A stretch of 64,000 bases of DNA, taken from positions 62,001 through 126,000 of the forward strand of contig JAIQGL010000001.1 of assembly GCA_020072585.1 (NCBI GenBank). The letters run 5' to 3'. A model generated the notes under the pieces. It saw only the letters and a program-made list of their open reading frames with translations. It did no database searches and was not told where the DNA came from. Below, piece by piece: positions 31,670 through 37,120 of the stretch. Both the position numbers and the translations under genes were made by a program. Position 1 is the stretch's first letter. Each line of letters begins with the position of its first letter. This DNA comes from Terriglobia bacterium (lineage in GTDB: Bacteria > Acidobacteriota > Terriglobia > Terriglobales > Acidobacteriaceae).

Positions 31670-32236
31670 TCACCCGGCGATTTTGGCCGTTACTTCCTTT
31701 TCTGCTCGATTGGGAAGCTTGCCGATCCAGACATTCCGGACCACTCCTTGATTGTCGACGAACAGGAGAGTGGGGGTCCCGTAGATTTCGAGTTCTGATA
31801 ATCTGGCCTGCAGTACCTCGTCAAATTCAACGCCCAGGCTCTTGGTGTACTCTTTTGCTGCTTCCGGCGGTTGCGGCAATATGGCAATTGTCCTGACGTT
31901 ATGGAGTTTACACAGCCGCGAGAGCTCACGATAAAACGCAGCGCTTTCCGTGCAGAAATGACAGGTAGCGGAAATCGCAAAAACGACATTTCTTTCGTTG
32001 CCCCGCCAATCAACATCGCGCAAAGCGAACCTGGTTCCAGCAGAAATCTGGCGCGGGTTTTCAGGCCGCTGCAGCAAATGGCTTCTTACCAGGACCACCG
32101 CAATTACCAGAGAAACCAGAATAATGGCGTAATTCGCCCCGGTTTCCACTTTTTTTGCCAAATCAGCCACGTTGTACCACACCCCAGTTGATGAAATTGG
32201 GTCCAGCGAAAGACGCGGCAACCAATGCGGCCGCAT
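31670..32236 (-). CDS. Membrane-anchored thioredoxin-like redoxin (TlpA-type)
   Basis: 188 residues from ATG 32236 (GGAG 10 bases upstream); TTG 32284 and GTG 32170 are alternatives. A single membrane helix (NYAIILVSLVIAVVLV, ~35-50) anchors a periplasmic thioredoxin fold: GTRFALRDVDWRG, active site ATCHFCTES with Cys92 and Cys95 (CHFC), and cis-Pro loop EIYGTPTLLFVD. Such proteins reduce or form disulfides in exported partners. The gene directly follows, on the same strand, a gene for a six-Cys exported peptide (stop at 32300), making that peptide the obvious candidate substrate. The pair lies between near-identical direct repeats. Confidence 0.8.
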   Translation of the reverse strand: MRPHWLPRLSLDPISSTGVWYNVADLAKKVETGANYAIILVSLVIAVVLVRSHLLQRPENPRQISAGTRFALRDVDWRGNERNVVFAISATCHFCTESAAFYRELSRLCKLHNVRTIAILPQPPEAAKEYTKSLGVEFDEVLQARLSELEIYGTPTLLFVDNQGVVRNVWIGKLPNRAEKEVTAKIAG

Positions 32237-32299
32237 CGTATTGCCGCTCCATACGAGCAGAATGTTACCTGGAAATTTCCCCAACGCCTGAACCGTCGC

Positions 32300-32500
32300 T
32301 TACTGACAGCGATTCACGCAAGCAATATAGACTTCGTCGCAGCCGAGAAGCCCTTGTTGTACACACTGCTGATAGTCATTGAGACAGTCATCCAGGCACG
32401 TGAAGGCATAGGCACGTGTAGGCTGTGACAAGGACAATGCGCCCACGATCAGGGCGCCAAGCACGAGCAAACGGGACACCGCTTTTTTGTAACTGGACAT
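32300..32500 (-). CDS. Small exported six-Cys peptide, predicted helical hairpin
   Basis: 66 residues. A consensus AAGGAGG lies 6 bases before the ATG. Signal peptide (SRLLVLGALIVGALSLSQ, cleavage probably after AYA). The mature ~34 residues have six Cys at 35, 39, 46, 54, 61 and 65, giving spacing 3-6-7-6-3, symmetric about the centre. Such a pattern fits two antiparallel helices stapled by disulfides 35-65, 39-61 and 46-54, as in CX3C helical-hairpin families. The redoxin gene follows immediately. Function unknown: it could be an antimicrobial, a metal-binding peptide or a structural one. Confidence 0.72.
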   Translation of the reverse strand: MSSYKKAVSRLLVLGALIVGALSLSQPTRAYAFTCLDDCLNDYQQCVQQGLLGCDEVYIACVNRCQ

Positions 32501-32742
32501 GTTCGACCTCCTTCCAGAATCAAGTCTGCAGGCGAACTATATTCCCGAGGATGCTGAAAAGAATGAAAGGGCGCAATCATTTACATATCCGAAAACGAAC
32601 CTTCCGATGCCAATCTGGCACGCAAAATACGACGCGCGCGCCTTCGCTTTGCCGTCAACCCGGGCCCGGCCTTGAATCGCTCGGCATGTTTCAGGTCCAG
32701 ATTTCCTCGGGTGCCTGTTTCCTTTCCTTGAGCAATGAGTAG

Positions 32743-35408: not shown

Positions 35409-36398
35409 TCAGTGCGTATGATTTCCCGTTTGCTTGGAGGTAAGCGCGACTTCGGTTTCCACTGCAACTTTAAGAGAATCGAGAGAAACGGCGCCGGTAA
35501 TTTTGCGGCCGTTGATGAAGAGCGTTGGCGTGCCTGTGATTCCCAAGGGTTCGACGTCCACAATCCGGGCTTGAACGCGTCGAGCGGTCTCGGGCGAATG
35601 TATGCAGAAGTCATAGGCCTGCGCCGCGACGCCTGATTGCACAGCGAGCCCCCGCAATTGCTGGGTTGCTGTTTTGGCGGCAATCTCCTGCTGGTGCTGA
35701 TACACAAGATGCTCGAACTTCCAGAATTGCGAAGAACTCTGTGCCGCCGCACATTCGCCGGCAATGGCGGCTGCCTGCGCCCACGGATGAATTTTTGTGA
35801 GGGGATGGTTCTTAAAGACCCACCGCAGAGACTGGGGAAAGGCGGCCCGTAATTGTTCGAGCTCTCCGTTGAGCTGGGCGCAAAATGGACATTCAAAATC
35901 GCCGAATTCAATCAGTGTTACCGTGGCATCGGAAGGGCCGGTTGCCGGTGCATCTGCGACCAGGGGCGCAAGCCTGTCACGATCGCCACTCCAGGGGTCT
36001 GAGGAAAGTTTGTCGAGCGAACCGCGCAGGATCTCTCCGCCGTCTGACGTGACGTAAAAAACATTTGTGACCGGCGGTTGGCTGTTATTCAGGCGCACAA
36101 CCGCTTTGCGAATTCCGTGTGCATCCGCGGCGCTGAACTCAACGACTTGAATGTCGCGCATCGGAACGAGCGCCGTGCGAGCCACATAGTCCCGCAGACG
36201 TTCGCGAAACGGCGCTTCCTCTGGACTTGAATCGGTGGTGCGGGCAATGTTGCTCGGATTTTCTTGTGCGCGCGTTGCGGGAGGGAGAGCGAACCCGATT
36301 CCTAAGGCCGAAATCAGGATAGCGAGAGACCCAAAATGAGTGAAACCGGGCTTCCGCCGCAAGGGCAGTACCGCCATACAGTCAAGAATCCTTTGCAT
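35409..36398 (-). CDS. DsbA/DsbG-like thiol-disulfide oxidoreductase (thioredoxin_4 type)
   Basis: 329 residues from ATG 36398 (AAGGTG about 6 bases upstream); the longer frame to 36524 lacks a site. N-terminal hydrophobic segment (FGSLAILISALGIGFALPPA), a ~100-residue N-domain, then the thioredoxin fold with FGDFECPFCAQLN (CPFC, Cys170/173), HPLTKIHPWAQAAAIAGECA, and cis-Pro loop GITGTPTLFINGRK. This form of periplasmic DsbA-like protein usually introduces or isomerises disulfides. Upstream in the same direction is a Cys-rich exported protein gene (36530-37120), a probable substrate. Confidence 0.88.
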   Translation of the reverse strand: MQRILDCMAVLPLRRKPGFTHFGSLAILISALGIGFALPPATRAQENPSNIARTTDSSPEEAPFRERLRDYVARTALVPMRDIQVVEFSAADAHGIRKAVVRLNNSQPPVTNVFYVTSDGGEILRGSLDKLSSDPWSGDRDRLAPLVADAPATGPSDATVTLIEFGDFECPFCAQLNGELEQLRAAFPQSLRWVFKNHPLTKIHPWAQAAAIAGECAAAQSSSQFWKFEHLVYQHQQEIAAKTATQQLRGLAVQSGVAAQAYDFCIHSPETARRVQARIVDVEPLGITGTPTLFINGRKITGAVSLDSLKVAVETEVALTSKQTGNHTH

Positions 36399-36453
36399 AG
36401 GCACCTTTTGGCATAATCCGCGAAAGGTCCAAGGGGATGGGACTCCTGTCACA

Positions 36454-36510
36454 CAGCCTGGGCATCCCCTGTTACTGAAGACAAAAAACAGAAGTGGTGT
36501 GCCCAGGCTG
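36454..36510. promoter_or_regulatory. Hairpin between the Cys-rich gene and the DsbA-like gene
   Basis: CAGCCTGGGCA (36454-36464) pairs perfectly over 11 bases with TGCCCAGGCTG (36500-36510). An inner CCTGT/ACAG pair may extend it. There is no T-run, so it may set mRNA stability or relative expression of the two genes rather than end transcription. Confidence 0.5.
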
Positions 36511-36529
36511 CGCAATTCTCTCAAGCCCG

Positions 36530-37120
36530 CTATTTTTTACGGCGGGCCTTTCGCAGACCAGTGTTGCACGCATTTATGCACGCCAGCTTCTGTGGAAGTG
36601 TGGTCCAGCAGCATACGATACCGTTGTCACAGAGCAGGCAGGGGTCTCCCCCATTCGCACAGGTTTTTGTGGCGAGATTGGATGTGACTACCTTTAATGT
36701 GATCGCGGGCAGGCCAAACTGTGCCAGGTCCGCAAGTTGAATTGAATCGCCGGTCGCCCCAATCACGTAAGAGCCAAGCGCTTTCGTGTCTGAGTTGCGG
36801 GCTGTCTGAAATGATGGACCTTTCGCATCTGTCCAGCTGTCTCCCAGGACCGCTCGAACGCGCACTGAGACCATCTGACCTGACATGTATGGTTCGAGCT
36901 GTACGCCGAAAACTCCTTTCGCGCCAGGAGTCGGAATGATGGATGATACTTTGCTTTGAACAGGAACGGTTTCGGAGGAACCATCCGGCATGGTGACGGA
37001 AATTCCCATCGTGTTAACTGCCTGGGTGGACCGCTGCCCCTTGGAGGTTCCCGCAAATAATGGAGAGGCAAGAAGCAATGCGGCACAGGCTAAGACAAGA
37101 TTCACGCGTGTGCGTCCCAT
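36530..37120 (-). CDS. Exported protein with Cys-rich C-terminus, unknown function
   Basis: 196 residues. Signal peptide (VLACAALLLASPLFAG). Residues ~30-145 form a beta-rich domain with repeated Val/Ser strands (GISVTMPDGSSETVPV, VFGVQLEPYMSGQMVSVRVR). The last 45 residues hold seven Cys (154, 161, 164, 170, 171, 181, 185) in TCANGGDPCLLCDNGIVCCW and a tail of basic residues (RKARRKK). Disulfide-bonded or metal-binding in the periplasm is likely. The following gene on the strand encodes a DsbA-like enzyme, and the arrangement parallels the peptide/redoxin pair at 31.7-32.5 kb. Confidence 0.68.
   Translation of the reverse strand: MGRTRVNLVLACAALLLASPLFAGTSKGQRSTQAVNTMGISVTMPDGSSETVPVQSKVSSIIPTPGAKGVFGVQLEPYMSGQMVSVRVRAVLGDSWTDAKGPSFQTARNSDTKALGSYVIGATGDSIQLADLAQFGLPAITLKVVTSNLATKTCANGGDPCLLCDNGIVCCWTTLPQKLACINACNTGLRKARRKK

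Follow-up and report, generated by a model that had tools for sequence, protein, structure and literature searches.

A redoxin family of Acidobacteriota adjoins variable, cysteine-rich exported proteins and may handle their disulfides

Introduction

Why should a gene for a short exported peptide with six cysteines lie beside a gene for a thiol enzyme? The question is raised by two minus-strand genes in the window, by which we mean the whole 64,000-nucleotide stretch of Terriglobia bacterium DNA that was analysed. Thiol enzymes dedicated to a single cargo are known from few systems, such as sublancin and methylamine dehydrogenase. In the mau cluster, MauD, a TlpA-like redoxin, is encoded with a cysteine-rich exported protein, the small subunit of methylamine dehydrogenase, and TlpA itself is a reductant in copper-site assembly. 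The CX3C motif, present in the window peptide, is also that of the plant alpha-hairpinins. In Streptomyces, mauE occurs in three candidate RiPP families, one of which also has mauD, with precursors of at least eight cysteines (PMC7794033, as far as the accessible part of that paper goes); a redoxin next to a cysteine-rich product is thus not a new idea. A sequence-only reading of the window pair had proposed a compact module that makes and folds a hairpin peptide, with an antimicrobial, metal-binding or signalling purpose. Here we compare the pair with its relatives across Acidobacteriota.

Results

The features of the two genes are collected in Table 1 and agree with what had been described from the sequence: a 66-codon gene with a ribosome site, a signal-like N-terminus and palindromic cysteine gaps, and next to it on the same strand a membrane-anchored redoxin with a CHFC active site. 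By eye, the N-terminus of the peptide resembles a signal peptide, with basic residues and a hydrophobic core ahead of the P-T-R-A-Y-A that precedes the first cysteine; the mature part has a net charge of -4. The peptide matched nothing in Pfam, NCBIfam or PDB, and its own genome holds no credible paralogue, the two weak matches found there both containing stops. Its stop codon and the redoxin ATG are 63 bases apart. A sigma-70 scan of both strands between 31500 and 32850 found no promoter-like sites, and the single terminator-like match in that interval falls inside the peptide gene. DUF4412 and M14 peptidase genes flank the pair, a DsbA-like protein is also among the neighbours, and no phage genes were seen among the neighbours read.

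Table 1. Positions of the features of the peptide and redoxin genes in the window.
Feature	Coordinates	Strand	Basis or remark
Exported six-Cys peptide precursor, 66 aa, ATG start	32300..32500	-	ORF list and relatives
Signal peptide, residues 1-32, ending P-T-R-A-Y-A	32405..32500	-	cleavage site placed by eye
Mature 34-aa part with Cys gaps 3-6-7-6-3, predicted to form a stapled helical hairpin	32303..32404	-	helix-wheel geometry
Shine-Dalgarno AAGGAGG of the peptide gene	32507..32513	-	direct sequence reading
TlpA/redoxin-like protein with membrane anchor, 188 aa counted from ATG	31670..32236	-	alternative TTG start 32284
GGAG, ten bases upstream of the redoxin ATG	32247..32250	-	direct sequence reading
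Predicted N-terminal membrane anchor of the redoxin	32072..32134	-	alignment; hydrophobic stretch by eye
Active site CHFC (C-x-aromatic-C)	31952..31963	-	sequence and alignment
Thr-cisPro-Thr (TPT) loop of the redoxin	31769..31777	-	alignment

We assembled 49 non-redundant redoxins of the window redoxin's family (at least 85 bits, window included; L022, L025 and L067, which score below 85 bits, and duplicates were left out) and, as controls, 30 PF08534 redoxins outside the family, drawn from 17 genomes in which it occurs. Detection thresholds were fixed after the first loci had been seen and were the same for the controls. An exported cysteine-rich ORF lies on the same strand within 400 nt of 31 of the 49 family redoxins as against 1 of the 30 controls (Fisher 5e-8), a loose control set in that 16 of its members lack a CxxC motif and are probably peroxiredoxins; among the 14 CxxC-bearing controls none has such a partner (0/14, Fisher 2e-5). 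Within 200 nt the figures are 31/49 and 0/30. The count within 400 nt is 30/48 with the window left out and 30/49 under a slightly stricter partner rule. Extending the distance to 1100 nt on the same strand gives 36/49 against 3/30, and adding the opposite strand 38 against 4, with L063 (one of the 36) and the control matches looking like chance frames.

Eighteen of the 49 have no partner within 400 nt. Five of these (L015, L016, L033, L050 and L030) have one farther off, at L015 a 438-aa protein 784 nt downstream that exceeds the size limit of the partner rule, and L040, scored as partnerless, has a cysteine-rich frame beside its redoxin that is apparently frame-shifted. For about a dozen family redoxins no same-strand partner was found. 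Near the redoxins of L034 and L020, which lack an adjacent partner, are opposite-strand or upstream cysteine-rich proteins with D-N-D-C-D-G-like repeats.

With the redoxin profile at E 1e-15 and no more than eight candidates scored per genome, the family was found in at least 17 of 396 phylum genomes and at least 26 of 398 family genomes. The 15 loci that came from a scan of GTDB species genomes are all from Acidobacteriota by title, although the patterns of that scan were narrow and other phyla are possible. The redoxin family is not confined to hairpin peptides; it adjoins unrelated cysteine-rich exported proteins phylum-wide, and the compact module proposed for the window is real and conserved. 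Could the window genes nonetheless be chance neighbours, a generic reductase next to an unrelated or spurious peptide ORF? A short ORF without a family match invites that explanation, but the pairing recurs without surrounding synteny, and both the relatives and the contrast with the controls contradict it, so that we give it almost no credence. The window genome carries a second redoxin and cysteine-rich pair on contig 38 (L024, 1507-2311), whose partner has 70 aa.

A single-sequence search with the peptide alone in 300 family genomes yielded three true relatives (L004, L005 and L006), each adjoining a redoxin of the window redoxin's family; a match at L007 was set aside as a chance match inside another kind of ORF. 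Two further hairpin peptides, L013 and L051, were reached from the redoxin side. Run against 398 family genomes, a profile of the six peptides recovered its own six members as strong matches (E 1.4e-21 or better), which therefore do not count as an independent test, and nine weak matches besides (E 0.0024-0.0088). Of the latter, L121, from the same genus, is a genuine exported peptide with eight cysteines, and the 3.2-kb locus around it holds no redoxin; L119, L120 and L124 look like chance frames, and no exported cysteine-rich ORF is evident at the remaining five. There is no further strong relative among the 398 family genomes sampled. The peptide-side evidence for pairing is three independent relatives, not six, and it is the redoxin-side evidence that carries the claim. 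The relatives keep the cysteine spacing and, at L004-L006, stand beside a redoxin, so that neither of the two outcomes named as fatal to the sequence-only reading (homologues without conserved spacing, or a peptide never next to a redoxin in other genomes) was seen; the hairpin-like L121 is a relative with no redoxin nearby.

Random ordering of the five cysteine gaps of the window peptide gives a palindrome in 6.7% of shuffles, and a single peptide is therefore weak evidence of symmetry. Exact palindromes occur in 6 of 15 cargos hand-picked from the partners: the window peptide, L011 and L013 (both 3-6-3-5-3-6-3), L008 (3-6-3-9-3-6-3) and the tandem peptides L030a and L030b (both 3-10-12-10-3). 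The other nine are not palindromic; two of them retain most of the ladder, L051 beginning 3-6-3-6-3-6-3 and L047 holding 3-6-3-5-3-6 before it diverges. Mirror symmetry thus characterizes the hairpin-type cargos and not every partner. On a helix, cysteines at i, i+4, i+11 and i+15 all fall inside 60 degrees of one face; those of the window peptide lie at 0/40/20 degrees in helix 1 and 0/340/20 degrees in helix 2, with the polar and acidic residues mostly opposite. The ladder and its one-face geometry support a predicted antiparallel hairpin with nested disulfides, and the window peptide looks like an eight-Cys ladder minus its innermost pair, with a shorter loop. Among hairpin-type precursors, 21 pairwise comparisons give an identity of 36.3% for the signals, which are compositionally biased, and 19.9% for the mature part without its Cys positions.

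The partners as a whole differ widely. The shortest cargo has 53 aa (L059) and the longest 438 aa (L015). The number of mature cysteines, counted by a fixed rule, is even in 34 of 37 partners, related members of which are not independent; of the exceptions, L065 has an odd number, so does L054, whose reading frame seems to break close to the end, and L047, entered one codon short, truly has 10. Such even numbers suggest complete pairing. A scan of 33 partners matched four Pfam and five NCBIfam families, each in a single member. The best family match, of L024 to a carboxypeptidase-inhibitor knottin, scored 21.8 bits, below the cut-off of 25; the next best was to a mussel myticin prepro model (E 0.0019), and the others were weaker than 0.01. 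Csp/DUF326 found no match in the 33 partners at E 0.05, and peptide P0001 matched no family at E 1.

Some cargos recur. One type, with 17 invariant cysteines, is shared by L019, L037, L043 and L107 and is found on chromosomes and on a phage contig. At L015, L016, L033, L050 and L108 an exported protein of ~240-280 aa stands between the redoxin and the cysteine-rich protein. The cysteine-rich proteins of L015, L016, L033 and L108 have a C-terminal domain in common, which L054 shares without the middle gene; it mostly contains a D-R-N-G-N-like motif, possibly calcium-binding, and across this domain the L108 protein matches phrog_3677, annotated as a protease. Signals carry a P-[ST]-x-A-like motif in 17/35 partners and 3/17 controls (Fisher 0.04), the control set being small and itself containing partners and redoxins; with this same mixed set, G-x-Y occurs in 14/35 and 6/17, no difference. 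When cargo classes, which we assigned ourselves, are placed on the redoxin tree they require 18 changes against a minimum of 4 and a shuffled mean of 26.7, so the classes are clustered yet switch often. The window redoxin groups (95/81) with its closest relative in the tree, that of L052 from the same genus, whose cargo is two tandem peptides of another kind.

What chemistry would suit such cargos? Against Redoxin PF08534 the window redoxin scores 28.9 bits (gathering cut-off 26.6), and Pfam groups it with Redoxin/AhpC-TSA. In comparison with MauD, it has no adjacent MauE and a cargo that is not MauA, and the NCBIfam MauD model TIGR02661 failed at E 0.1 to match it or 14 of the 15 family redoxins searched, the fifteenth matching at E 0.0012. 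The curated ResA model gives the window redoxin 15.5-15.8 bits against a cut-off of 170 and matches 12 of 15 family redoxins weakly (best E 6.4e-6). Its CHFC active site is unlike the CEPC/CVPC type of ResA, CcmG and TlpA. C-x-[F/Y]-C was found in 45 of 46 family motifs located by script, as was Thr before the cis-Pro; by eye L056 also fits C-x-[F/Y]-C, L060 has CIHC and L045 has lost its CxxC. In contrast, Phe and Tyr are absent from that place in all 15 control CxxC motifs (CGPC, CVPC, CAPC and similar), and TPT occurs in one control redoxin (L089). A C-terminal rhodanese-like extension was noticed by eye on the family redoxins of L018, L045 and L066.

Tyr in the CXXC motif together with Thr-cisPro is given as a mark of isomerases in the available portion of PMC5909903, where DsbC is CGYC/TcP, HP0377 (CSYC/TcP) refolds scrambled RNase, and TlpA or ResA have CVPC/McP or CEPC/LcP. 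The redoxin thus resembles DsbC/DsbG and HP0377 in its C-x-Y/F-C active site and Thr-cisPro (PMC5909903, same portion). It is unlike DsbC/DsbG in having a hydrophobic anchor in the place of the DsbC_N dimerisation domain, to which the window redoxin shows no match at E<=1, and in being tied to a neighbouring cargo instead of housekeeping. Exchange of the Thr before cis-Pro for Val or Leu left HP0377 activity unchanged (PMC5909903, in the part seen), which makes this Thr a weak marker. Isomerase chemistry appears most likely from these motifs, with oxidase or reductase possible. VKOR is present in 16 of 20 genomes and MauE is above cut-off in 15 of 20; in those 20 genomes no match to either lies closer to the redoxin than 10 kb, and recycling of the redoxin must therefore fall to general systems.

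The cysteines might instead serve metal handling: Cys-lined helices would bind a soft metal such as Cu(I), and the redoxin would keep them reduced. One-face CX3C repeats also suit thiolate metal sites, and TlpA-like redoxins are often reductants. Redox potentials in the accessible part of PMC5909903 bear on the same side. This reading is improbable in our judgement, given that partner cysteine counts are so regularly even, that their layouts are quite different (down to the knottin-like L024, below cut-off), that the active site is isomerase-like and not the CVPC/McP of TlpA, and that no conserved third gene lies nearby. Metal storage in particular is weakened by the even counts and the absence of Csp/DUF326 among the 33 partners.

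Comparison of 19 loci (4-20 kb each) showed the redoxin to be the sole gene that recurs in more than two, and the pair is a cassette rather than an operon remnant. Eight chromosomal loci read at 13-20 kb contain ordinary genes and, by eye, no evident phage genes; one transposase-like ORF is present, in L103. Two IMG/VR phage contigs carry the cassette. On L110 (3187-5768) the redoxin, an exported protein and a cysteine-rich protein occupy the strand opposite the head genes and are flanked at one end by minor head, portal and terminase genes and at the other by those for scaffold and major head; L110 alone thus has the reverse-oriented accessory genes within a structural operon that characterize a phage moron. 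On L109 (6001-8378) the redoxin and three or four cysteine-rich exported ORFs, two of them with similar upstream regions, adjoin an integrase, and a terminase lies on the same contig. Five viral scans led to the same two contigs, two of these scans having been queried with a protein of one of them. The L107 redoxin found no match in 50,697 phage records, and a search of plasmid records gave none.

Placement beside an integrase on L109 and opposite the head genes on L110 would fit a phage-conflict set, in which the exported cysteine-rich protein alters or shields the cell surface, perhaps as a guard against superinfection, and travels as a moron. The viral contigs are only two, however, the L107 redoxin has no counterpart in the phage records, and the eight chromosomal loci are without evident phage genes, the L103 ORF apart. 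We consider this explanation unlikely, if more plausible than metal handling.

Discussion

To account for the pattern in the sequences, the repeated occurrence of the two genes side by side, the variable cargos with their even cysteine numbers and carriage on two phage contigs, we favour as the probable explanation a mobile cassette in which a cargo-dedicated, DsbC-like enzyme would act on a neighbouring, variable, disulfide-rich exported protein. The first gene would give a disulfide-rich protein that leaves the cytoplasm via Sec, and the second an enzyme of the thioredoxin fold, held by an anchor in the inner membrane, whose active site would face outwards. This enzyme would work on the cysteines of its neighbour; its combination of C-x-[F/Y]-C with Thr-cisPro, as in DsbC, makes disulfide isomerase or proof-reader its most likely role, in which it would help numerous cysteines lying close together to find their right partners. 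For the window cargo we predict an antiparallel helical hairpin of 34 residues with putative nested disulfides C1-C6, C2-C5 and C3-C4. Adjacency of redoxin and cargo does not equal activity; our confidence is good for the pairing and fair for a role in disulfide handling.

The nearest working parallel is sublancin, which is not of the same family. Sublancin and the glycocins (SunA-BdbB, SP-beta prophage) likewise join a short two-helix disulfide peptide to a thiol-disulfide enzyme of the same operon, with a phage-borne type case (PMC6391423, in the portion available), and their disulfides are nested on two helices (accessible parts of PMC6391423 and PMC12457901), an arrangement that the cysteine spacing of the window peptide would fit on a helix-loop-helix. 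Unlike the glycocins, the window pair adjoins no glycosyltransferase or C39 transporter/peptidase, its signal is of Sec type and not the usual double-Gly leader, and the peptide is acidic with an extra outer CX3C rung. The alpha-hairpinins share the helix-loop-helix, predicted here, with CX3C on each arm; they have four cysteines (PMC11591084, as far as the part seen states), whereas the bacterial peptides have six to ten and are acidic.

Is the cargo, then, a bacteriocin or interbacterial toxin that kills neighbours, with the redoxin maturing it in the way that BdbB matures prophage-encoded sublancin? A two-helix disulfide peptide, a dedicated thiol enzyme and phage carriage all parallel sublancin (PMC6391423, same portion), and cargo diversity is high. 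Yet the 19 loci have no recurring gene beside the pair for immunity, a transporter or a leader peptidase, cargos above 400 aa are atypical of bacteriocins, and of 33 mature cargos 28 are acidic, 3 are neutral and 2 have a charge of +1. We hold this as a minority possibility, to be taken somewhat more seriously than the phage-conflict set. The prevailing acidity also weakens the antimicrobial option among the purposes first proposed for the peptide, and a cationic antimicrobial in particular, the window peptide itself being at -4.

Within the preferred reading of a mobile cassette, cargo variability, phage carriage and the absence of fixed neighbours lead us to guess that the cargo acts at the surface or after secretion, in competition or phage-host conflict. 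A broader and distinctly tentative interpretation is that Acidobacteriota and their temperate phages may share a mobile arsenal of hypervariable, fully disulfide-bonded exported proteins with a role in bacterial competition or phage-host conflict. As in the gene families of venom peptides, the signal peptides would be more conserved and the mature parts would change freely, and each protein would travel in a two-gene cassette with a membrane-anchored isomerase of its own.

We found no description of this redoxin/cargo pairing in open-licence PMC text, nor, in the same text, of a phylum-wide link of cysteine-rich products to one redoxin family, with hypervariable cargos and phage carriage. Across a poorly studied soil phylum, many cargos that are disulfide-rich but unrelated to one another appear to share a single redoxin family, and disulfide-rich exported proteins are here linked to temperate phages. 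The redoxin offers a genomic hook by which to find exported, disulfide-rich proteins missed by the family libraries searched, and could also yield small hairpins as scaffolds together with a catalyst suited to fold them.

A second thiol-enzyme pair lies 3 kb from the window pair. An exported 196-aa protein with a cysteine-rich C-terminus (36530-37120, minus strand), for which 300 family genomes gave one weak relative, is directly followed by the gene for a DsbA-like protein (Thioredoxin_4, CPFC; 35409-36524, minus strand).
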